From positions 1,240,001 to 1,304,000 of the forward strand of contig LS483371.1 of NCBI GenBank assembly GCA_900475325.1: a DNA stretch of 64,000 bases. The letters run 5' to 3'. This document shows positions 8,574 through 60,195 of the stretch, one piece after another. How positions within the stretch are numbered: position 1 is the first letter of the stretch; each line of letters starts with the position of its first letter. The DNA is from Paucimonas lemoignei. GTDB lineage: Bacteria; Pseudomonadota; Gammaproteobacteria; Pseudomonadales; Pseudomonadaceae. Made by a program: the position numbers and the translations under genes. The notes beneath the pieces are model-generated. The model worked only from the letters and a program-made list of their open reading frames with translations, was not told the origin of the DNA and made no database searches.

Positions 8574-9533
8574 CTACGGCTTACGCCCCACAATCACCGC
8601 GCGCATTGGCGCGGGCAGGCCCTCTACGGTTTTGCTTTGATCTTCTGGATTAAGAAAATCGCTCAACGACTGATAGCGCATCCACTCGGTGCCGCGCTGT
8701 TCTTCAGTGGTCGTCACGCTGACATCCACGCAACGTACATCCACGAAGCCCGCCCGGCGCAGCCAAAGCTCCAGGGCTGCGACTGACGGCAGGAACCACA
8801 CGTTACGCATCTGCGAATAGCGGTCTTCCGGCACCAGCACCTGATGCACGTCGCCTTCTACCACCATGGTTTCCAGCACCAGTTCGCCACCTTTGACCAG
8901 GCAGTCCTTGAGCGCCAACAGGTGATCAATAGGCGATTTGCGGTGATAGAGCACGCCCATGGAAAACACCGTGTCGAAGCCTTCCAGACGCGCTGGCAGG
9001 TCTTCCAGTGCAAAGGGCAGATGCCATGCGGGCAGATCAGGCAGGTAACGCTGCATGGCCTGGAACTGGCAGAAGAACAGCCAATTCGGGTCGACACCAA
9101 TCACGCTGTCGGCCCCGGCGCCAAGCATGCGCCACTGGTAGTAGCCATTGCCGCAGCCAACGTCCAGCACGCGCTTGCCGTTGAGGTCCAGATGCGGCGC
9201 CACTCGCGACCATTTCCAGTCCGAGCGCCATTCAGTGTCGATGTGCACGCCGAACACATCAAACGGGCCTTTGCGCCACGGCGACAGGCCCATCAACGCG
9301 GCGCGGGTCTGCGCGCGGGTCTCATCGTCGCACTCCACATCGAGGGTAAAGCTGTCCTTGAGGTCAATGCGCGAGGGGACCAGATCCGGTAAGGCATTGA
9401 GCGCACCTTGCCAGCGCTCCAGGTCGCCATGACCCTTGGCCATTTTCGTGTCGAGCTGGGCCTGCAGGCCGTTGGCCCATTCAGCCAGAGGGGTGCCCGC
9501 CAGACGGCGGACCAGGGGAGCAAGATCAATCAT
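8574..9533 (-). CDS. cmoB: tRNA U34 carboxymethyltransferase CmoB
   Basis: Transfers the carboxymethyl group of carboxy-S-adenosyl-L-methionine to 5-hydroxyuridine at the wobble position, giving cmo5U34. From the ATG at 9533 the product has 319 residues ([16 protein letters not shown]). The longer open frame upstream adds 14 residues not found in the family. The Rossmann motif [13 protein letters not shown] (about 122-134) and the basic lid [11 protein letters not shown] are visible. Its ATGA start overlaps the cmoA stop, so the two genes are translationally coupled. Confidence 0.97.
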
Positions 9534-10273
9534 GGCAGGGCAATCAACGAGGCAAAGTTCAGGCATTGGAACCACGGCACCACCTTGCTGAAACCTGCGT
9601 CGAGCAGGCGCTGGCGGTGTTCTTCGAGGCTGTCGGGTTTCATGACGTTTTCGATGGCGCTGCGCTTCTGGGCAATTTCCAGATCGCTGTAGCCATTGGC
9701 GCGTTTGAAGGCGATGTGCAGGTCGGTGAGCAAGGCATGTTCCTGCTCATCGGCAAAGCGCAGTTTCTCGGAAAGGATCAGCGCACCACCCGGCAGCAAC
9801 GCCTGGCGAATGCGGCTCAGCAGCGCAAGGCGTTGATCCGGGGCGATGAATTGCAGGGTGAAGTTCAGGGCAACCACCGAGGCCGGCTGGAACTCCAGGG
9901 CGAGGATGTCGCCGTCAATCACCTGGACGGGCAGCAGCTCCTGAAACATCGAGTCTTGCGCATTGAGGTATTCCCTGCAGCGCTCGACCATGGCCGCTGA
10001 GTTATCCACAGCAATAACGCTGCAGCCCTCGCTGCGCACATGGCGGCGCAGGGCCTGGGTGACAGCGCCCAGCGAACTGCCCAGGTCATACAGCACGCTA
10101 TTGGGTTGAGCGAATTGTGCGGCCAGCACGCCGAGGTTTTCGACGATGGTCGGGTAACCGGGCACTGAACGCTTGATCATGTCCGGGAAAACCCGCACCA
10201 CGTCTTCGTTGAAAGCGAAGTCCGGCACCTGGGCTAGCGGCTGGGCGAAAATGCGGTCGGGTTCTTTGCTCAC
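9530..10273 (-). CDS. cmoA: Carboxy-S-adenosyl-L-methionine synthase CmoA
   Basis: Makes carboxy-SAM from SAM and prephenate, the cofactor used by CmoB. The 247-residue product begins [25 protein letters not shown], typical of the family. It has the SAM-binding loop [12 protein letters not shown] and the later strand [16 protein letters not shown]. It sits directly upstream of cmoB with a 4-base overlap. Confidence 0.97.
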
Positions 10274-10366
10274 GGTGATTCCGGCGGCGGGCTGAAAAGT
10301 GCGGCATTTTAGCCAAATCCGCGCTCAAGCCGAAACATCATCTGACCGCAGGGCGGCAAAAGAGCC

Positions 10367-10759
10367 TCAATTGACGGTTATTGCGCAATCGAAGGTCTGC
10401 TCAGGGGCTACTTCCGGTGCCCAGGGCTGCTGATACACCATCGTCAAACGGCCATTGCCAGCAGTCGCTGCCTGATAACGCCAGACCGACTGACCGGCGC
10501 TGCCGACCATGCTTTTGTCCTCCGGGTTGTTATAAACCTCTGGGCCCAGGCTGCGCAGGATCGATTGCGCCGGGTTCTGCACCTGCCAGCGAAAACCCGT
10601 GGTGGGGTTGCTCGGCAAGGTCAGCATCATGGTCTGGCCGGTCTTGAGCGTGAGCGGGCAATCACCTTGCTCTTCCAGGGTCACAACCTGCTTGGGGTGC
10701 TGCGCGCAGGCAGCCAGGAGAGAAAAACTTAGCGGGAGTAGCAGACGGGCAGAGGGCAT
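10367..10759 (-). CDS. Chagasin/ICP-like (I42) inhibitor lipoprotein
   Basis: Small lipoprotein of about 130 residues starting at the ATG 10759, chosen because it gives a clean lipoprotein signal (MPSARLLLPLSFSLLAAC, lipobox LAAC). The mature part carries the three loop motifs of the chagasin/ICP family of cysteine-protease inhibitors: NPTTGFRW, the glycine-containing loop SMVGSAGQSVWRYQA, and QQPWAPEVAP (RPW-like). Family members block papain-type peptidases. The physiological target in Pseudomonas is not known. It is a separate minus-strand gene between cmoA and lon. Confidence 0.85.
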   Translation of the reverse strand: MPSARLLLPLSFSLLAACAQHPKQVVTLEEQGDCPLTLKTGQTMMLTLPSNPTTGFRWQVQNPAQSILRSLGPEVYNNPEDKSMVGSAGQSVWRYQAATAGNGRLTMVYQQPWAPEVAPEQTFDCAITVN

Positions 10760-10810
10760 GGTGGCTCCAGTCTTCGGACGAAGCTGGAGCATAACCGATG
10801 ACGACACATT

Positions 10811-10904
10811 CTGTAGGACCGGCTTCAGCCGGGAAGAGGTCGGTACATCCGCAACATATATGCCGTCAGAAATGCCGCCTTCCCGGCTAAAGCCGGTCCT
10901 ACAG
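10811..10904. repeat. REP-type palindrome pair
   Basis: CTGTAGGACCGGCTTCAGCCGGGAAG and its inverse CTTCCCGGCTAAAGCCGGTCCTACAG flank about 40 bp, just downstream of the lon stop. Confidence 0.85.
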
Positions 10905-10920
10905 AAATGAGCTTTGCTGC

Positions 10921-13341
10921 CTAGAACAACACCTTCGCCACATCCGCGAAGCGTTTGGCGAAGTGCACGGTGATGCCTTCTTTCAGGTAATCCGGTAGTT
11001 CTTCAAAGTTGCCACGGTTGGGTTCCGGCAGGATCAGCTCGTTGATCTTCTGCCGACGGGCCGCGATGACTTTTTCCCGAACGCCGCCAATCGGCAATAC
11101 ATGCCCGGTCAGGGTGAGTTCGCCGGTCATGGCCACGCCTTTTTTCGGCGCCTGATTGCGGGCCAGGGACAGCAGGGCGCTGGCCATGGTCACGCCCGCA
11201 CTCGGGCCGTCTTTTGGCGTGGCGCCTTCGGGTACGTGCAAATGCACGAAGGCTTCGTCGAAGAACGTCGGATCACCGCCGAATTGCTTGAGGTTGGAAC
11301 TGACGTAGCTGTAAGCAATTTCCGCCGATTCCTTCATCACATCACCTAACTGCCCGGTGAGTTTGAAGCCGCGGTTCAGCGTGTGAATGCGGGTTGCTTC
11401 GATCGGCAGCGTGGCACCGCCCATGCTGGTCCAGGCCAGGCCGGTGATCACGCCGGTGCCTGCCAGAACCTGCTCATTGCGGAACACCGGCATGCCCAAC
11501 GAGGCTTCCAGATCTTTCGGGCCGATTTTGATCGCCGATTTGGGCTCGTCAATCAGCTTCACCACCGCTTTGCGGACGACTTTGCTCAGTTGCTTCTCAA
11601 GCTGCCGCACACCGGCTTCCCGGGCGTAACCTTCGATGATCGAACGCAAGGCGGTGTCACTGATCGACAGGCTGCCTTTGGACACGCCGGCTTTCTCCAG
11701 CTGTTTAGGCCACAGGTGACGCTTGGCGATGGCGAGCTTTTCCTCGGTGATGTAGCCCGACAGGCGAATCACTTCCATCCGGTCCAGCAACGGGCCGGGG
11801 ATGGAGTCCAGCGTGTTCGCGGTGCAGACAAACAGCACTTTGGACAGGTCCAGGCGCAGGTCCAGGTAGTGATCGAGGAATTCGACGTTCTGTTCCGGGT
11901 CGAGGGTTTCCAACAGTGCCGACGCCGGGTCGCCCTGGAAGCTCTGGCCCATCTTGTCGATTTCGTCGAGCATGATGACCGGGTTCATCACTTCCATATC
12001 TTTGAGCGCCTGCACCAGCTTGCCCGGTTGGGCGCCGATGTAGGTGCGACGGTGGCCCTTGATTTCGGCCTCGTCACGCATGCCGCCGACGCTGAAGCGA
12101 TAGAACGGACGCCCCAGAGATTCAGCAATCGAGCGGCCGACGCTGGTTTTACCGACGCCCGGCGGGCCGACCAGCAGCACGATGGAACCGCTGATTTCGC
12201 CTTTGTAGGCCCCGACAGCGAGAAACTCCAGGATCCGCGACTTGATGTCGTCCAGACCCGCGTGATGCTGGTCGAGCACTTTGCGCGCGTGCTTGAGGTC
12301 CAGTTTGTCCTTGCCGAACACACCCCATGGCACCGAGCTGGCCCAGTCCAGGTAGTTGCGTGTCACGGCGTACTCAGGCGAGCCGGTTTCAAGCACCTTG
12401 AGTTTGTTGATCTCTTCGTCAATACGCTTGCGCGCCTGGGCGGGCAGGGTCTTGCCTTCCAGGCGGGCTTCGAACTGTTCGATGTCGGCGCTGCGGTCGT
12501 CCTTGCTCAGGCCCAGTTCTTGCTGGATGACCTTGAGCTGTTCCTTGAGGAAGAATTCGCGCTGATGTTCGCCGATCTTGCGGTTCACCTCGGCAGAGAT
12601 TTCTTTCTGCAAGCGGGCGACTTCGACTTCCTTGCGCAGCATCGGCAGGACTTTTTCCATGCGTTTGAGCATGGGCACGCAATCGAGTACCTGCTGCAGG
12701 TCCACGCCAGTGGCGGAGGTCAACGCAGCGGCAAAGTCGGTCAGCGGCGACGGGTCGTTGGGGCTGAAGCGATTGAGGTAGTTTTTCAGCTCTTCGCTGT
12801 AAAGCGGGTTGAGCGGCAGCAGTTCCTTGATCGCATTGATCAACGCCATGCCGTAGGCCTTGACCTCGTCGGTCGGCTCATTGGGCTGATGCGGATATTC
12901 GACTTCCACCAGGTACGGCGGACGATGGTGCTTGAGCCAGGTCTTGATGCGTACCCGGCTCAGGCCCTGAGCGACGAACTGCAGCTTGCCGTTTTCCCGG
13001 CTGGCGTGGTGCACCTTGACCAGGGTGCCGTACTCCGGCAGCGCGTCGGTGTTGAAGTGGCGCGGATCTTCCGGCGGCGTGTCCATGAAGAACAGCGCCA
13101 GGGAGTGATGATCGGACTTGCTGACCAGCTCAAGGGTTTCGGCCCACGGCTCTTCATTGACGATCACCGGCAACACTTGGGCCGGGAAGAACGGGCGATT
13201 GTGAATCGGGATGATATAGACCTTGTCCGGCAGATTCTGCCCAGGCAAGGCAAGCGTGGTGCTGCTGGAGTTCAGCGTAACTTCGTGCTCGCCTTCCACA
13301 TCATCTGGTAAGTCTTGGGAATCTGCTTGCTGGTTGCTCAT
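10921..13341 (-). CDS. lon: ATP-dependent protease Lon
   Basis: Cytoplasmic AAA+ serine protease that degrades misfolded and regulatory proteins. From the ATG at 13341 (MSNQQADSQD) the product has 806 residues; the longer frame upstream adds nine implausible residues. Visible parts are the N-terminal substrate domain, Walker A GPPGVGKT (392-399), Walker B VIMLDEID (455-462), and the catalytic dyad Ser714 (KDGPSAG) and Lys757 (GGVREKVIAA). The gene stands alone and is preceded by a very good match to a heat-shock (sigma-32) promoter. This is the general housekeeping Lon type, with the LPGQNLPDKVYIIPIHNRPFF start of the substrate domain. Confidence 0.96.
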   Translation of the reverse strand: MSNQQADSQDLPDDVEGEHEVTLNSSSTTLALPGQNLPDKVYIIPIHNRPFFPAQVLPVIVNEEPWAETLELVSKSDHHSLALFFMDTPPEDPRHFNTDALPEYGTLVKVHHASRENGKLQFVAQGLSRVRIKTWLKHHRPPYLVEVEYPHQPNEPTDEVKAYGMALINAIKELLPLNPLYSEELKNYLNRFSPNDPSPLTDFAAALTSATGVDLQQVLDCVPMLKRMEKVLPMLRKEVEVARLQKEISAEVNRKIGEHQREFFLKEQLKVIQQELGLSKDDRSADIEQFEARLEGKTLPAQARKRIDEEINKLKVLETGSPEYAVTRNYLDWASSVPWGVFGKDKLDLKHARKVLDQHHAGLDDIKSRILEFLAVGAYKGEISGSIVLLVGPPGVGKTSVGRSIAESLGRPFYRFSVGGMRDEAEIKGHRRTYIGAQPGKLVQALKDMEVMNPVIMLDEIDKMGQSFQGDPASALLETLDPEQNVEFLDHYLDLRLDLSKVLFVCTANTLDSIPGPLLDRMEVIRLSGYITEEKLAIAKRHLWPKQLEKAGVSKGSLSISDTALRSIIEGYAREAGVRQLEKQLSKVVRKAVVKLIDEPKSAIKIGPKDLEASLGMPVFRNEQVLAGTGVITGLAWTSMGGATLPIEATRIHTLNRGFKLTGQLGDVMKESAEIAYSYVSSNLKQFGGDPTFFDEAFVHLHVPEGATPKDGPSAGVTMASALLSLARNQAPKKGVAMTGELTLTGHVLPIGGVREKVIAARRQKINELILPEPNRGNFEELPDYLKEGITVHFAKRFADVAKVLF

Positions 13342-31511: not shown

Positions 31512-31774
31512 TTCATTGGCCCGGTTAAACCTGTTAATCGCACCTGACTCAAGCTTAGACGCTGGCTGCGGGATCGTTGGAAATTGTGAGCGCAGGGCCT
31601 CAGCATCGGTGCCGGGGCAGGGCGCTCGTCTGTGGTGATTATTTTGTAGGAAAAGTCTGTTTATAAACGCCGCATGTTGACAGCAAGTTTGAACGCTGAT
31701 TACGTCAAGTTGTGAGTCGCCAAGAGGCCTCATCTCTCATTAATTAAATACTGACTGAATAAGTGGGTAGCACT

Positions 31775-32671
31775 ATGAATAAGCACAAAAAACTTGTGCT
31801 GGGTAAACTCGCGTGCGCGATTTGCCTAGTGATCTCCGGTGGCGTATTTGCCGAACAGCAGACCCTGACTGCGCCGGTTGCAAGCAATAACAACACTGCA
31901 TCCGTGATGGAGATTCCGGGCATCTATAATCTGCCTGATAAATTCAATCACGATCATCGAACGCTCGATCTGAATGCTCCGGTGCACATACACAAATTTA
32001 CCGCGATTCGCGGGCAGGATGTGTTTGTGAAGGTGGCGAACGCACAAGGCCTGAGAGTTGAGAGGCTGGAAGGGCAGGTCTGGAAGTCTGTCAGCGCATC
32101 AGGCGATATGGTACGAAACCTTAGTCCCGGTAACGAGGTGATCGTCAGTGTTTCATATGCTGGGCTGCCTGAGCCTGGAGGTGTGACTTATGAAATGATG
32201 ATGGGCTCGGCGCCCGTACTGAAGGACTACAATCTGTGGGATGAGTCTGGGGTCAAGCGTATTCCTCCCATGGACACCCCGATGTACTTCACGACGCAGG
32301 CCTACACAAAGGCTCAGCTTTTTGTGAAGTTCACCGACTCTAAAGATTTCCCATTAGAGGGGGCGCAAGCAAAGTTTTATTTAACATACGGGGATAAGTC
32401 TCCCCGTCCGGCTGTGGAACTAAAATATTTTTCTGATTCGGGTGGGTCTATTGTCCGTACGGTAAATCTTGGCGCTTGCCGAAGCTCATATGCGACCGAG
32501 TTTTCCGAGTTTTCGGGAGGCTATGTTAATACGTGGAGAAGTTTCTATCTGATGGCGGGGTACAGGGTTTTCAACGAATATTTAAATGATGCTGGTACCA
32601 ATTTTCGTTATCTTGGTCATGTTTGTAGGCATGATTTAGTTCGCAGTGTGTCTGATAAAGTGCGCAGCTGA
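31775..32671 (+). CDS. Secreted protein of unknown function
   Basis: 299 residues from ATG 31775 with a convincing signal peptide (MNKHKKLVLGKLACAICLVI, cleavage near GGVFAEQQ). I do not recognise the family. The N-terminal half (about 45-145) looks all-beta (HIHKFTAIRGQDVFVKVANA, EVIVSVSYAG). A second beta part (about 175-230) follows, then a C-terminal segment with two Cys (LGACRSS and HVCRHD) that could form a disulfide in the periplasm or outside. Base composition is lower in G+C than the flanking housekeeping genes, especially 32340-32650, which hints at acquisition. It is not related in sequence to the three paralogues that follow. It ends in a good terminator. Confidence 0.75.
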   Translation: MNKHKKLVLGKLACAICLVISGGVFAEQQTLTAPVASNNNTASVMEIPGIYNLPDKFNHDHRTLDLNAPVHIHKFTAIRGQDVFVKVANAQGLRVERLEGQVWKSVSASGDMVRNLSPGNEVIVSVSYAGLPEPGGVTYEMMMGSAPVLKDYNLWDESGVKRIPPMDTPMYFTTQAYTKAQLFVKFTDSKDFPLEGAQAKFYLTYGDKSPRPAVELKYFSDSGGSIVRTVNLGACRSSYATEFSEFSGGYVNTWRSFYLMAGYRVFNEYLNDAGTNFRYLGHVCRHDLVRSVSDKVRS

Positions 32672-32679
32672 GCAGAAGG

Positions 32680-32712
32680 CCGCCAGGTTCTAGCCTGGCG
32701 GTTCATGTTCTT
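32680..32712 (+). terminator. Terminator after the secreted orphan gene
   Basis: Perfect 8-bp stem CCGCCAGG / CCTGGCGG with a 6-base loop, then a T-rich stretch (TTCATGTTCTTC). It lies between convergent transcripts. Confidence 0.7.
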
Positions 32713-32779: not shown

Positions 32780-33433
32780 CTAAGCTTTCACGTCCACACT
32801 CATCGCGCGGCGATCATCTGCATTGGACAGTGATTTCAAGTCCCAGCCCATCCATTGGTCAAAGTGATTTATAACATCGGTGTGATTGGTGTTTCGAAAG
32901 TCGATGATCATAGGTTTTACATCCACGCCATGACGCGCTGTCAAGGGGGCGCTAGCCCGGCATTCATTTGCTAACTTATGTATGAGCTTGACATGGCCTC
33001 GAATCGAGGTTACGAGTTCCTCTTGGCCGTTCAATGCCTCGGTTAACCACTCCTTCTCTCTGGGCGTTAAATTATTTTTCGGGTCCAATACCTGTAATGT
33101 GTCATCCGGTCCGAGCGTGTAGCCAAAATCCTTATTCGCCAAGTTTGGATTGAAGGAGCAAAGTGCTTGGTTAAATTTCTTGGTCTCGATCTCTGTGAAC
33201 ATTAACTCCATGGCTGCGGCCATTCTTCTAAAGCAGTCCTCAGGGCTTATCAGCACTGGCGTCACAGTGGGAAGTTTTTCGGACTTACTGCTCACAAGAT
33301 TGTCTGTGAGATCGTCCTTGGGTTCTGAGATGGGTGTAACGGCAGAAGTCGTTTTCGCGACATCACGCTGTCGGGTAATGGCCAGTGCAGATGGATTGGA
33401 GCAGGCAGGCACAGATGCAATCGGTATATTCAT
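32780..33433 (-). CDS. Unknown protein, tandem paralogue A (LxDPxNxLT family)
   Basis: 217 residues, no signal peptide, family not recognised. Residues 1-60 are rich in Ser, Thr, Pro, Asp and Lys and probably disordered. A helical core follows with KDFGYTLGPDDTLQVLDPKN then NLTPREKEWLTEALNGQEEL. The tail ends MSVDVKA. It is about half identical to paralogue B over the core and shares the MNIPIAS start and the VD[VI]xA end. Two adjacent ATGs exist (33436, 33433); the second is better spaced from the purine-rich CAGAGAAA site. It is the last gene of a three-gene unit. A Ser/Pro-rich N-terminus without a Sec signal is compatible with type III or other non-Sec export, which is speculation. Confidence 0.75.
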   Translation of the reverse strand: MNIPIASVPACSNPSALAITRQRDVAKTTSAVTPISEPKDDLTDNLVSSKSEKLPTVTPVLISPEDCFRRMAAAMELMFTEIETKKFNQALCSFNPNLANKDFGYTLGPDDTLQVLDPKNNLTPREKEWLTEALNGQEELVTSIRGHVKLIHKLANECRASAPLTARHGVDVKPMIIDFRNTNHTDVINHFDQWMGWDLKSLSNADDRRAMSVDVKA

Positions 33434-33606
33434 CATGGTTTCTCTGTGTGTTTTCGCTTCTGGTAAAGGCAGTAGATCAGACGTATGAATATCCATGCGT
33501 TGGCCCCCACTGCGACGTATTGAAGGGCTAGTCAATAGCGGTCCGCACAATACCTGTGTTTGAAAAATTTCAGTCGTTCTATCCAGTCAGGATTTTAACC
33601 AACATT

Positions 33607-34311
33607 TCAAGCTTCAATATCGACCCTGGCAGTTTGCCCGCCATATCCGTTACGGGCCCCGTTAGGTTCCTGGCTCACCCATTCATCAAAGCGCTGGAGA
33701 AAATCACGGCTGTCTAATTTACGGTAATCGATGACGAAGCTGTCGTGGTTCTGCCCCGATTGTCGGGCGTTGACGCCGCAAGGTGCATATTCAGCCAAGA
33801 GCTGGCGGGTCGTCTGTACATGATTGCGAACTACGTTTACCAGTTTTGTTTGAGCGTTCAATGCATCGGTTAGCCACTCCTTTTCCTTGGGCGTCAAGTT
33901 ATTCTGTGGGTCGAGGACTTGTAATCTGGAGTCAGGGCCGAGGGTATAGCCGAAGTCCTTACTTGCCAGCGCAAGGTCGAATAGCGCTAAAGAGCTGTTA
34001 AATCGCGCAGTATCAATCTTTGCCAGAGCTGCATCGAGATAGAGATATATTCTTCTGCTCTCAACCTCGCGGTCTGGATGGGCTTTCCTGAGGGGAATTG
34101 TTGTTCCCGTTTCTCCATTGTCTTCAATCTGCTTTTGCAACGTTTTGGGGAGGTTTTCTAAAGTTACAGGTAGCGGTGATGTTCGTTCAACCGGCTTGTC
34201 TTCCCCATGAGTCGGCTGGGGGAGAGTAGCTTGCGGCAATGAAACATCGGGCTGGCGAGTAATTGCCGATGTATTGGTGAAGCCAGGCAGAGATGCAATC
34301 GGAATATTCAT
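33607..34311 (-). CDS. Unknown protein, tandem paralogue B (LxDPxNxLT family)
   Basis: 234 residues, no signal peptide, family not recognised. It starts MNIPIASLPGFTNTSAITRQ, has a polar Pro/Thr-rich stretch to about residue 85, then the conserved core SKDFGYTLGPDSRLQVLDPQN and NLTPKEKEWLTDALNAQTKL. The motif FVIDYRKLDSRDFLQRFDEW corresponds to MIIDFRN...VINHFDQW in A. It ends ARVDIEA. The ATG at 34311 is preferred to 34314 because AGAGGA lies at better spacing. Similarity with A continues about 75 bases upstream of both starts, so A and B arose by a duplication that included the leader. Confidence 0.77.
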   Translation of the reverse strand: MNIPIASLPGFTNTSAITRQPDVSLPQATLPQPTHGEDKPVERTSPLPVTLENLPKTLQKQIEDNGETGTTIPLRKAHPDREVESRRIYLYLDAALAKIDTARFNSSLALFDLALASKDFGYTLGPDSRLQVLDPQNNLTPKEKEWLTDALNAQTKLVNVVRNHVQTTRQLLAEYAPCGVNARQSGQNHDSFVIDYRKLDSRDFLQRFDEWVSQEPNGARNGYGGQTARVDIEA

Positions 34312-34403
34312 CATGGTTCCTCTGAATTTTTCACTTCCGGTAAGCAGCGTGGATAAGGCGTATGAACGTCAATACGTTGGACCAACAGCTCGGACATGTT
34401 CCA

Positions 34404-35054
34404 TCAAGCCCATATGTCCACCCCGCTGGCCCCCTTTAGAACGGCCATATTCAGTGTGTCGTTCGACCACTGTTGATGCAGGAGATCGACAGATTCTTTG
34501 CTGAGGTAACAATCATTGTTCTGGCAGAATTCCTTGATCCGGGTTTCGAATGCCGTCTTGCTGGTTTGCAGGGCCTGCTTAATCGCCCCGTCAGTTTTGT
34601 AGCCGCTCAGTTTGAGTTCGCTAAACAGTCCTGCCGGGTTATCCAGCTCCGCTTGTAGCCATGCGCGGTCTTCTTTGGTCAGCGCATTGCTGGGGTCGTG
34701 TAGCTGAACGTTCATCTGGGCATCCAATACAAAACTAAAGGGTTTGCCCTGAAGCTCCGGTCTACGGAAGTTCATCACTGATTGGAGTGAATGATCGTTC
34801 AGCTTGCAGAGCAGTTCGAAGTTTCCAAGGCTGACCTGTTTTTCAATCGCCCAGGTGTCCGGGAATTCGAGTTGCTGCAGCAGTTCGATATCGTCGTTTT
34901 TATAGTGGGTGGCGGGGGAGTCTTTGTTGAGGCACTGGCTGACCAGCGACGTCAGTCGGCTGGGAGCTGTTTCAGGTGCGGATTTAGGCGCCAACTGCTG
35001 GCTGAGATATCTGTTCTGCACAGGTATCGATTGCAGGGGTTGTATGACATTCAT
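34404..35054 (-). CDS. Unknown protein, tandem paralogue C (distant LxDPxNxLT member)
   Basis: 216 residues, no signal peptide, family not recognised. It is more distant than A and B but alignable: VQLHDPSNALTKEDRAWLQAEL matches LQVLDPxNNLTPxEKEWLTxAL, and it ends GVDIWA. The N-terminus (MNVIQPLQSIPVQNRYLSQQ) again is polar and non-Sec. Two Cys lie in FCQNNDCY. It is the first gene of the unit C-B-A. A GAGGGA ribosome-binding site lies 6 bases before the ATG and can pair with an upstream copy of its complement (see 35062-35147). Confidence 0.75.
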   Translation of the reverse strand: MNVIQPLQSIPVQNRYLSQQLAPKSAPETAPSRLTSLVSQCLNKDSPATHYKNDDIELLQQLEFPDTWAIEKQVSLGNFELLCKLNDHSLQSVMNFRRPELQGKPFSFVLDAQMNVQLHDPSNALTKEDRAWLQAELDNPAGLFSELKLSGYKTDGAIKQALQTSKTAFETRIKEFCQNNDCYLSKESVDLLHQQWSNDTLNMAVLKGASGVDIWA

Positions 35055-35061
35055 GGAGAGT

Positions 35062-35147
35062 CCCTCTCGGTTGCTACAGTCCCTTTAGCTAACGGCCAGA
35101 TCAATAAAAACTTGGCCTGATAAAGGTGTAGGAAACTTCCGAGAGGG
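35062..35147 (-). other. Inverted repeat able to pair with the ribosome-binding site of paralogue C
   Basis: CCGAGAGGG just before the start of paralogue C (35070-35062 on the minus strand) includes its Shine-Dalgarno. The exact complement CCCTCTCGG lies at 35147-35139, 68 bases upstream. A GGCCA/TGGCC pair lies between them. If transcription starts upstream of 35147, the leader can fold and mask the start. Confidence 0.5.
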
Positions 35148-56851: not shown

Positions 56852-58315
56852 GTGGACCTGGAACCGGCAAAACGCCGTCTGCCACTGCCGCGCTCGCTAT
56901 TGGGACGCATGCTGCTGCTGACGCTGTTGGCAGTGTTCCTCGCTCAGGCGCTGTCCAGCGTCATCTGGCTGTCGCAGTTGCGGGCCACACAGATGGAAGG
57001 GTTGATCACCAGCGCCCGCAGCCTGGCTTATTCCATGGCGGCGAGTGTCAGCTACTTTCGCTCCCTGCCACTGGCCTATCGGCCGCTGGTGCTGGACCAG
57101 CTACGCAGCATGGGCGGCACGCGTTTTGTGGTGTCGCTCAATGACCGCCCGCTGGACATGCAAGTGCTGGATGCTACTCCGCGCAAGCAAGCGGTGCTCA
57201 CGGTTGTCGACGAGGTTCTGCGCCAGCATCTGGGCGCCGACCCGGCCATCGCCGTGTGGTTTGTGCGCCCCGAAGACCTGCGCATCTTCAACAGCGGCCT
57301 GAAACTCGACGAGCTGCCGCGTTCCTGGGCGCATTACGCGCTAAGCCTTGAGCCGGTGAACCCGCCGGTATTGGTCACCCAGATCGAGTTGGCAGAGGGG
57401 GAGTGGTTATACATCGCGTCGCTGCTGCCTGAGCCTTACACCACCCTTGAAGAGCAGGATCTACCGCTGCAGCAGGTGTGGTTCATCCTGCTCACCAGCG
57501 GTTTTCTGTTGTTGTTCATCGGCCTGCTGGTGCATTGGCAGAGTCGCCCCCTCAAGCGTCTGGCCAGGGCTGCGCGGGACATGTCGCTGGGGGCCGATGT
57601 CGAGCCTGACGTTGAAGGCGGAGCCAGCGAAGTGGTGGAGGTCAGCCGCGCGTTCAACGCCATGCGCACGCGTATCAGCCGCTACCTGACTGAGCGGGGT
57701 CAGTTGTTCAGTGCGATATCCCACGATCTGCGCACCCCGATCACGCGCTTGCGCCTGCGCGTCGAGCTGCTTGAGGACGAGGCCTTGCAAGCCAAATTCA
57801 CCCGTGATCTGGATGAGCTGGAGCTGCTGGTCAAAGGCGCCTTGCAATGCGTCAAAGACACCGATATCCACGAGAACATCGAGGCGGTGGACCTTAATCA
57901 TGTGCTGGATTGCCTGGTGGAGCCGTATCTGTTGCCAACCGGCAATGGCAATGCCACGCAGCAGGGCAAGGCACTGGCGCCCTATCAAGGCAAGCCGCTG
58001 GCGCTCAAGCGTTGTATCGGCAACCTGATCGACAACGCCCTCAAGTACGGCACCAAAGCCCACCTTAAAATCGAAGACAACCCCCATGCCTTCGTCCTGC
58101 ATGTCGACGACGAAGGGCCGGGCGTGCCAGAGCAGCGCCTGGAAAGGGTGTTCGAGCCGCACTTCCGGCTGGCGGGCAATCAGCAGCAAGGCTACGGCCT
58201 CGGGCTGGGCATCGCCCGCAACATCGCCCACAGCCATGGGGGGGAGGTCAGCTTGCAGAACCTGCGTGGGGGTGGGTTGCGTGTGACGCTGTTTTTGCCG
58301 CGTACAGCCGATTGA
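56852..58315 (+). CDS. gtrS: Sensor histidine kinase GtrS
   Basis: 487 residues from GTG 56852. TM1 about 17-38, a periplasmic sensor domain about 45-205, TM2 about 209-228, HAMP, and the HisKA phospho-site His291 (FSAISHDLRTPITRLR). The ATPase domain has NLIDNALKYG, DEGPGVPE and GYGLGLGIA. In P. aeruginosa GtrS senses 2-ketogluconate and 6-phosphogluconate and acts on GltR. Here its stop is followed by a dispersed repeat and an IS element rather than directly by gtsA. Confidence 0.93.
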   Translation: MDLEPAKRRLPLPRSLLGRMLLLTLLAVFLAQALSSVIWLSQLRATQMEGLITSARSLAYSMAASVSYFRSLPLAYRPLVLDQLRSMGGTRFVVSLNDRPLDMQVLDATPRKQAVLTVVDEVLRQHLGADPAIAVWFVRPEDLRIFNSGLKLDELPRSWAHYALSLEPVNPPVLVTQIELAEGEWLYIASLLPEPYTTLEEQDLPLQQVWFILLTSGFLLLFIGLLVHWQSRPLKRLARAARDMSLGADVEPDVEGGASEVVEVSRAFNAMRTRISRYLTERGQLFSAISHDLRTPITRLRLRVELLEDEALQAKFTRDLDELELLVKGALQCVKDTDIHENIEAVDLNHVLDCLVEPYLLPTGNGNATQQGKALAPYQGKPLALKRCIGNLIDNALKYGTKAHLKIEDNPHAFVLHVDDEGPGVPEQRLERVFEPHFRLAGNQQQGYGLGLGIARNIAHSHGGEVSLQNLRGGGLRVTLFLPRTAD

Positions 58316-58933: not shown

Positions 58934-60195
58934 TGTACGGACCGGGCACATCGCTTACACGTGTACGGGGACATGGTTAACACTTTCTGGCGAACCCACT
59001 TCGCCGGGAAGCCATCATGCCTTGGAATACGAGAGATGCCATGAGCCTGAAAAAAGAGTTCATTGCCTTAGCGCTGCAACCCGGCAGCAACAAAAGGGAT
59101 TTGTGTCGGCGCTTTGGTATCAGTGCGCCGACAGCATACAAATGGCTTAAGCGTTACGAGATGCAGGGGCTGCAGGGATTGGAGGAGTACTCCCGCCGAC
59201 CTATTTCTAGCCCTAAGCTGACTCAGCCATCCTTGGAGGCGCAGGTCGTAAAGCTTCGGCAGGAACAACCCGCTTGGGGCGGACGCAAGATAAGCAGCAT
59301 GCTCAGCCAGTGTGTTGCCCCCAGCACCGTCACCAATATCCTGCATCGCAATGGACTGATTCTGCCGCGTGAAAACCCGGGTCAAGGAGTAGGCAGGCGT
59401 TTTGAGCACGAGGCACCTAATGACCTTTGGCAGATGGATTTCAAGGGGCACTTCGCCATCCAACAAGGCCGCTGTCATCCGCTAACGTTGCTGGATGATC
59501 ACTCTCGGTTCAACCTGGCAATCGAGGCATGTGCCAATGAACAAAGAGGCACTGTCCAGCAAAGACTGACTGATATCTTCCGCCGCTTTGGCCTGCCTGC
59601 ACGACTCAATCTGGATAATGGATCGCCTTGGGGCGCGCCGCGTAATCCTGGAGAGCTCTCTGAACTGAGTATCTGGCTGGTGCGCTTGGGCATCCGGGTA
59701 AGCTTCAGTCGCCCTCGACATCCGCAAACGAACGGCAAGCTGGAGCGTTTTCATCGTTCACTTAAGGCCGAGGTTATCAATGGGCGCCACTTTCGTACCC
59801 TCACTGAAGCCCAGGTGGCCTTCGACCAATGGCGTGAAATTTATAACCATCAGCGCCCTCACGAAGCGCTGGGTTATCAAGTCCCGATGAGTCGCTATAG
59901 GGCCAGCCCATGGACCTTTCCAGAGAAGCTGTCGCCATTCGAATATGGCCCTGACGATGTATTGGCCAAGGTCTACCACAGCCGATTTCGCTTCAGGAAA
60001 CGCTACTTCAGCATTGCCAAGGGCCTGGTAGGGCAACTGATTGCCATCAGACCTAACCCTGACAGTGAGGACCTGTTCAATATCTATTTCTGTCATCACT
60101 TGCTGCGAACCATCGACATCAATCAGCCGGACTACAGTTGAGGATGTGTAAAGCATGTGTCCGCACACGTGTAAGCGATGTGTCCAGTCCGTACA
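58934..60195 (+). mobile_element. IS481-family insertion sequence, complete
   Basis: 1262 bp. Terminal inverted repeats of 31 bp (58934-58964 and 60165-60195) begin TGTACGGAC and match at 29 positions. Ends are TGT...ACA, as usual for IS481. A 5-bp target duplication GCACC lies at 58929-58933 and 60196-60200. Comparison with R1, where the site is a single GCACC within ACTTTTGGCACCAAAAGT, gives the pre-insertion sequence directly and confirms both ends. It contains one intact transposase gene. Confidence 0.95.
59017..60141 (+). CDS. IS481-family DDE transposase
   Basis: 374 residues from ATG 59017 (GGGA 7 bases upstream; ATG 59041 is an alternative). An N-terminal HTH (KRDLCRRFGISAPTAYKWLKRY) precedes an rve integrase core with the catalytic triad Asp141 (LWQMDFKGHF), Asp200 (LNLDNGSPWG) and Glu243 (TNGKLERFHRSLK). 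The PHEALGYQVP segment and the YHSRFRFRKRYF tail are typical of the family. The frame is uninterrupted and the inverted repeats are intact, so it may be active. Confidence 0.94.
   Translation: MPWNTRDAMSLKKEFIALALQPGSNKRDLCRRFGISAPTAYKWLKRYEMQGLQGLEEYSRRPISSPKLTQPSLEAQVVKLRQEQPAWGGRKISSMLSQCVAPSTVTNILHRNGLILPRENPGQGVGRRFEHEAPNDLWQMDFKGHFAIQQGRCHPLTLLDDHSRFNLAIEACANEQRGTVQQRLTDIFRRFGLPARLNLDNGSPWGAPRNPGELSELSIWLVRLGIRVSFSRPRHPQTNGKLERFHRSLKAEVINGRHFRTLTEAQVAFDQWREIYNHQRPHEALGYQVPMSRYRASPWTFPEKLSPFEYGPDDVLAKVYHSRFRFRKRYFSIAKGLVGQLIAIRPNPDSEDLFNIYFCHHLLRTIDINQPDYS

Follow-up and report, generated by a model that had tools for sequence, protein, structure and literature searches.

A protein family with sigma28-type promoters and a convergent, putatively secreted partner in Pseudomonas

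A window of 64,000 nucleotides from the genome of Paucimonas lemoignei (GCA_900475325.1, contig LS483371.1, positions 1,240,001 to 1,304,000; a single contig of 5.92 Mb, genus Pseudomonas) was analysed around three adjacent genes, A, B and C, whose products belong to a protein family termed F here. Two features of F were new relative to the original prediction, which had described the three genes from the letters of the window: sigma28-type promoters upstream of most F genes, and a gene, P, coding for a putatively secreted partner and lying tail to tail with F. Taken together, the two features suggest an undescribed flagellum-linked secreted system. Comparison loci are referred to by number (L).

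The three F genes of the window

The three minus-strand open reading frames (ORFs) were found where the original prediction had placed them, with the endings it had read.

32780-33433, minus strand: 217 aa, F gene A (MNIPIAS...VDVKA), at the downstream end of the presumed C-B-A operon; own promoter not found
33607-34314, minus strand: F gene B (MMNIPIAS...VDIEA), 235 aa; own promoter not found
34404-35054, minus strand: 216 aa, F gene C (MNVIQP...VDIWA), at the head of the presumed operon

The length of A was counted from the ATG before NIPIAS, and in-frame starts further upstream were also present. A and B shared 35% identity over their full length (E 5e-44), while the core alone aligned between C and B (E 2e-5, 74 residues) and between C and A (E 3e-6, 58 residues). 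With A as query in a search of the whole genome, C was a weak match (E 0.04). An iterated profile seeded with all three scored A, B and C at 5e-49, 1e-42 and 2e-37, and in a midpoint-rooted FastTree of 80 F sequences C grouped with A and B on long branches (support values not read). Because profile and tree place them together, the genes are called three tandem diverged paralogues, with C the distant one, as had been claimed; by sequence comparison they are members of one undescribed family. The common core was present, although the motif LxDPxNxLT that had been proposed for it was slightly misaligned (VLDPxNNLT in A and B, LHDPSNALT in C). No Sec signal was seen by eye in A, B or C, in agreement with the earlier description of their N-termini.

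Promoters of the F genes

A site resembling a sigma28 (FliA) promoter was located upstream of C.

35089-35115, minus strand: sigma28/FliA-like promoter CCAAGTTT-N11-GCCGTTAG, 4 of 16 positions mismatched, 34 bp upstream of the start codon (ATG) of C

The exact form CAAGTTT-N11-GCCGNTA had a single occurrence in the 5.9-Mb genome, before C. Counting words in the upstream regions of 56 selected F genes revealed a conserved block near the start codon, TTCCTACA-N-TTATCAGG-CAAGTTTT-N10-GCCGTTA, in which the CAAG...GCCG part has the letters and spacing of the sigma28 consensus. The upstream test used the consensus given in PMC7286023, TAAAGTTT-N11-GCCGATAA, and not the pattern discovered in F; upstreams with N, repeated upstreams and ORFs below 150 aa were dropped. 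At up to 4 mismatches in 16 positions, the consensus was found upstream of 56 of 88 F genes, 0 of 47 P genes and 7 of 801 other ORFs; at up to 5 mismatches, the counts were 67 of 88, 7 of 47 and 37 of 801, respectively. The best matches were seen in L160 and L162, outside the genus (1 mismatch each), in the P-linked F of L042 (2) and in L072 (2), a member of the singleton clade, which has a quite different gene context. Three tandem F genes in L161, also outside the genus, had 3, 5 and 5 mismatches.

The strict pattern CAAG-N14-GCCG[CT]TA gave 51 matches in 60 loci (1.23 Mb; two collections, partly overlapping), and 46 of these stood at the start of an F gene on the same strand. Two of the other five preceded F genes with a start called too far upstream (L047, L091) and one preceded F fragments (L090), while the remaining two (L084, L086) were followed by the end of a P gene and no F ORF, and F may have been lost there. 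In the genome of the window, fliC, a CheV-like gene and a chemoreceptor gene had CTCAAG-N14-G[ACT]CGATAA upstream, with the spacing found in F; this pattern had 11 sites in the genome, 3 of them at those flagellar and chemotaxis genes, against 4 sites for the reversed control. For the RpoF (FliA) regulon of strain DC3000, the motif TAAAAG-N15-GCCGATA is given in section 24 of PMC3247240, where PSPTO_5635 and PSPTO_5638 appear as RpoF-motif genes of unknown function. The F genes are like the sigma28 regulon of Pseudomonas in promoter elements and spacing (fliC of this genome has CTCAAG-N14-GACGATAA) but unlike its known structural, chemotaxis and motor proteins, and most P-linked F promoters have an extra palindrome upstream.

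Some results weigh against flagellar control. Upstreams of P were slightly nearer the consensus than those of other ORFs (rank test p 9e-5), so base composition contributes, and the sequences are related by descent, so that P values overstate independence. Most P-linked F promoters had GCCG[TC]TA as the -10 element and not GCCGATAA. CAAG-N14-GCCGNTA was missing from 10 of 86 F upstreams even at 2 mismatches. In the window, the upstream of C had 4 mismatches, while those of A and B, taken singly, had 8 and 7; the match would therein belong to the presumed C-B-A operon as a whole. With these points considered, control of F by FliA is likely, with the caveat that the common promoter variant carries T or C at the position of the consensus A.

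The partner gene P

31677-31706, plus strand: TTGAC-N16-GATTACGTC, resembling the sigma70-like element of P genes
31775-32671, plus strand: gene P, 298 aa, with two conserved Cys and, by eye, a Sec-type signal; tail to tail with A
32678-32703, plus strand: hairpin of 11 pairs in the gap where P and A end, a possible common terminator

Among F genes of at least 150 aa and distinct over the last 80 residues, 37 of 84 had a convergent P within 400 bp downstream and none had a P in the same orientation; 5 of the 37 pairs came from loci fetched via P and the rest from loci fetched via F. The gaps between F and P ranged from 20 to 264 bp, with 29 of 37 at 40 to 64 bp, and a convergent pair was also found outside the genus (L160, gap 54 bp). 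The distances among F and among P proteins were correlated over 31 pairs (Mantel r 0.86, a value reached in 0 of 5000 permutations). It had been proposed earlier that the C-terminus of the three proteins is bound or inserted somewhere, for example by a secretion machine or a partner protein, and a constrained tail together with the partner gene P agrees with this. A sigma70-like element, TTGAC-N14/19-TATTACGTC, was present upstream of 17 of 42 P genes. The hairpin scan gave 4 terminator-like sites against 3.7 in shuffles, i.e. no excess.

The pairing of F with P is weakened by several observations. No P was present within 400 bp downstream of 47 of 84 F genes, singleton clade included. The correlation of distances is partly trivial for linked genes, and a within-locus swap allowed 8 arrangements only, two of which (the observed one included) reached the observed value. 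Secreted proteins of 480 to 504 aa with the P region as their C-terminal half were found in L102-L112 and L116, and F was not detected near them. The idea that an undetected F adjoins the long P proteins was rejected for 8 of the 11 loci L102-L112 (L102, L103, L105-L109, L112), where inspection by eye showed one ordinary conserved convergent gene or a mis-called ORF overlying it. In those eight loci, the convergent neighbour was strictosidine-synthase-like and apparently one conserved gene. In L110, a 729-aa protein (9020-11209, minus strand) was convergent with the long P, and its N-terminus resembled by eye that of effectors of the type VI secretion system (T6SS).

In Pfam, relatives of P had weak matches to PPC (PF04151; best 5.1e-5, 24.5 bits against a gathering score of 25.9) and Big_1 (PF02369; best 2.9e-5, 24.5 bits against 34.9), and the P of the window matched neither. 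The putative PPC-like and Ig-like character of P rests on these sub-threshold matches to its relatives, and the P family differs from PPC and Big_1 proteins in having two conserved Cys of its own.

A palindrome shared by F and P

31645-31657, plus strand: TGTAGGAAAAGTC, upstream of P, a half-site of the F/P palindrome
35127-35144, minus strand: imperfect palindrome TCTCGGAAGTTTCCTACA, upstream of the promoter of C, 2 mismatches to TGTAGG-N6-CCTACA

The palindrome TGTAGG-N6-CCTACA, at up to 3 mismatches, was present upstream of 39 of 89 F genes, 19 of 42 P genes and 63 of 802 other ORFs; where F and P diverge from a common intergenic region, a single site may count for both genes. F and P would thus seem to have separate transcripts under common regulation. 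GacA, whose box is given as TGTAAG-N6-CTTACA in PMC4950607, was tried as the regulator and rejected, the GacA box fitting 16 of 89 F upstreams at the same threshold. The half-site TGTAGGAnnTTTC, common to F and P, had 16 copies in the genome, some inside genes, against 3 for the reversed control. Two copies lay at G000:C1:5765263 (L151) and G000:C1:2309342 (L144), one of them 256 bp upstream of a tssA-like ORF and the other 217 bp upstream of a LuxR-type response regulator.

Protein ends and sequence constraint

The C-terminal half of F ends in a short alternating hydrophobic stretch. Among the 89 F proteins that reach 150 aa and are distinct in their last 60 residues, 57 ended in [VI][DSNHR][IVTAE]x[AVI], against 2 of the 857 other ORFs called mechanically in the same loci, and 78 had the looser ending [VILF]x[IVLTAEMS]x[AVI], against 22 of the 857; these patterns were composed after the members had been seen, and the counts describe without testing. 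A less redundant set of 45 F proteins had 27 with the stricter and 35 with the loose motif. The ending VD[IV]xA, which had been singled out from A, B and C, was found in 11 of 89 F proteins and in 0 of 857 other ORFs; conservation of the last five residues holds, with a broader motif. Eleven of the 89 F proteins had not even the loose motif, which counts against the explanation favoured below.

In 24 F pairs, dN/dS was 0 to 0.17 in the second half where defined, indicating strong constraint, 0.06 to 0.48 in the first 55 residues, and 0.13 to 0.79 in the middle, with several values saturated. F diversifies fast, and with no value above 1, positive selection is not indicated. The N-terminal 50 residues contained 10% S, 10.7% P and 11.8% A, compared with 6.3%, 2.8% and 7.7% in the last 120. 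An M-x-[IL] start was seen in 35 of 42 members (start codons picked by the analyst). One F protein of the singleton clade starts MALTVSS and the FliC of the window's genome MALTVNT, a short likeness that could be chance.

Distribution of the family

As the sole query, B had matches in 53 of 398 Pseudomonas genomes (its own included) and C in 7 of 398. An iterated profile over 40 match neighbourhoods and the window recovered 69 F ORFs, fragments included; 13 of the 40 loci, and the window, had more than one F ORF reaching 150 aa. A scan of named genomes gave 19 F loci, mostly from the P. syringae group (P. cilantro, cerasi, congelans, viridiflava, cichorii, amygdali and others). Broken or short F or P copies were frequent in the named loci (L082, L085, L090, L095, L099), a sign of rapid turnover. 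An order-wide profile search matched 6 of 390 genomes, 3 of the same genus (own included) and 3 of other families.

No curated family describing F was found in Pfam, NCBIfam, PADLOC or PHROGs, the matches listed (up to 25 families each for Pfam and PHROGs) being weak and scattered. Isolated weak Pfam matches to Spc25 (3 of 37 F members) and Evf (1 of 37) were taken as chance, and no ColM or other toxin domain was found in the 37 members (E up to 1; 25 of 29 families listed). A sequence search against solved structures gave no relative, with a best E of 0.03 for F and 0.06 for P. The number of genomes, the tandem copies and the lack of a curated-family match bear out the earlier view of a family that has expanded locally, diverges fast and has no recognised domain. 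An F-type family was undescribed among the matches listed from open PubMed Central literature, mostly titles and starts of abstracts, and passages of PMC6424431 and PMC4362757 added nothing about F.

A very diverged F-like group (L113, L117, L119, L120) had proteins of 195 to 211 aa, with starts such as MNLTSVVDQN, convergent with P genes; the F profile detected 2 of the 4. Outside the genus, a signal-less protein of about 390 aa ending in FLEE stood beside the F genes (L160:10705-11877, minus strand; L161:10766-11935, plus strand), with sigma28-like sites upstream and no Pfam family above cut-off.

Secretion machinery and neighbouring genes

The only FHIPEP gene in the genome was FlhA, beside an FlhF-like ORF (FlhF by eye). 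The hrp boxes were not above chance, with 1 in 56 F upstreams (2.0 in shuffles), 1 in the window, at 56860 (0.73 expected), and 3 in 99 loci. An Hrp-type effector is unlikely because the sole FHIPEP export gate is flagellar FlhA, and this candidate was rejected; linkage to an injectisome, a survey suggested earlier, was not borne out. One VipB gene of a T6SS was present, 4.5 Mb from the window by contig coordinate, and no vgrG, hcp or PAAR gene was recognised by eye beside F in the part of the neighbourhoods inspected. A bacteriocin driven by SOS or PrtN was rejected, LexA sites and the P-box each being found in 0 of 56 F upstreams.

In the window, a large gene of penicillin-binding-protein type flanked P, C, B and A on one side and an OpgC-like acyltransferase gene on the other (ORF names by eye). 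A GroEL-type ORF lay at the window edge (24-1340) and an integrase-like transposase ORF (by eye) at 59017-60141.

Proposed function and alternative explanations

The favoured explanation is that A, B and C belong to the flagellar (FliA/sigma28) regulon, with C, B and A probably transcribed as one operon from the sigma28-like promoter of C. With its S/T/P/A-rich N-terminus and no visible Sec signal, F would exit via the flagellar type III export apparatus; outside the cell or in the periplasm it would encounter P, which would be Sec-exported, PPC/Ig-like and apparently controlled from a similar regulatory site, and the constrained C-terminal stretch of F would be the likeliest docking element. 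We infer FliA dependence, flagellar export, binding to P and any role in competition or host contact from the sequences. Flagellar export is proposed because of the promoter, the polar N-terminus, the flagellin-like start in a singleton member and the absence of any second type III system, and action outside with P because F is signal-less, under flagellar-type control and present in many diverged copies, often with a Sec-exported partner. We put at about even the chance that F is produced along with the flagellum, is perhaps exported through it and acts with secreted P.

We know of no described counterpart of the F-P system. Cia, FspA and FlaC of Campylobacter and YplA of Yersinia are non-structural proteins exported by the flagellum; the sigma28-linked expression and missing Sec signal of F would fit with them, but F differs in its tandem copies and convergent Sec-exported partner, and its export is putative. 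Colicin M and the pore-forming colicins have convergent toxin-immunity gene pairs, an arrangement like that of F and P, and polymorphic toxins have a conserved N-terminus and a variable C-terminus, opposite to F. Pairs of colicin M-like bacteriocins and periplasmic immunity proteins (PMC5277000, PMC4661593) are like F-P in their secreted or periplasmic partner, but F has no ColM or toxin domain, is common without a linked P and has its variable and conserved halves reversed.

F could accordingly be read as an antibacterial, bacteriocin-like toxin that leaves via the flagellum or the T6SS and acts in the periplasm of kin, with P as periplasmic immunity. The tail-to-tail pair, the Sec-exported partner, the tandem and decayed copies and the correlated divergence would suit this, as would the VipB gene and TGTAGGAAATTTC 256 bp before the tssA-like ORF. 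The F genes with no P nearby are awkward for a required immunity protein, unless a P lies elsewhere in the same genome, as are broken or short P genes beside intact F in four of the 19 named loci (L082, L085, L090, L095), and the constraint on the C-terminal half, the variable N-terminus, the missing LexA and P-box sites and the lack of a toxin domain match also speak against it; we regard it as unlikely. The earlier suggestion of exported effectors or a toxin/immunity-like set stands as to an expanded, fast-diverging family with a partner gene, while toxin and immunity were not established given the F genes without a nearby P. A cytosolic role, with F as flagellar-regulon regulators or chaperones (FlgM-like, export chaperones) and P as an unrelated neighbour, is similarly doubtful: many flagellar-regulon products are cytosolic, and sigma28-type promoters and small signal-less proteins would be expected of it, but a regulator would not usually diverge so fast or expand in tandem, and the convergent P recurs even outside the genus, with the palindrome enriched before F and P both. 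Least probable, and by some distance, is that F are Hrp type III or T6SS effectors for plant or bacterial cells and that the flagellar-type promoter sets timing only. The polar N-terminus starting MNI and the many carriers among plant-associated members of the P. syringae group would be in keeping with it, and its T6SS half with the T6SS of the genome, against which stand the missing injectisome export gate and the chance level of hrp boxes.

A more speculative form of the favoured explanation, which we consider improbable in its full extent, is that F-P is a flagellum-coupled polymorphic two-protein secretion module, in which the C-terminal strand of F would dock into or complete the Ig-like fold of P to give a diversified extracellular complex against competitors, phages or hosts. 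Already on the favoured explanation, a large, fast-diverging family with a flagellar-type promoter and a convergent secreted partner, many plant-associated pseudomonads would couple motility to the release of a variable protein pair.

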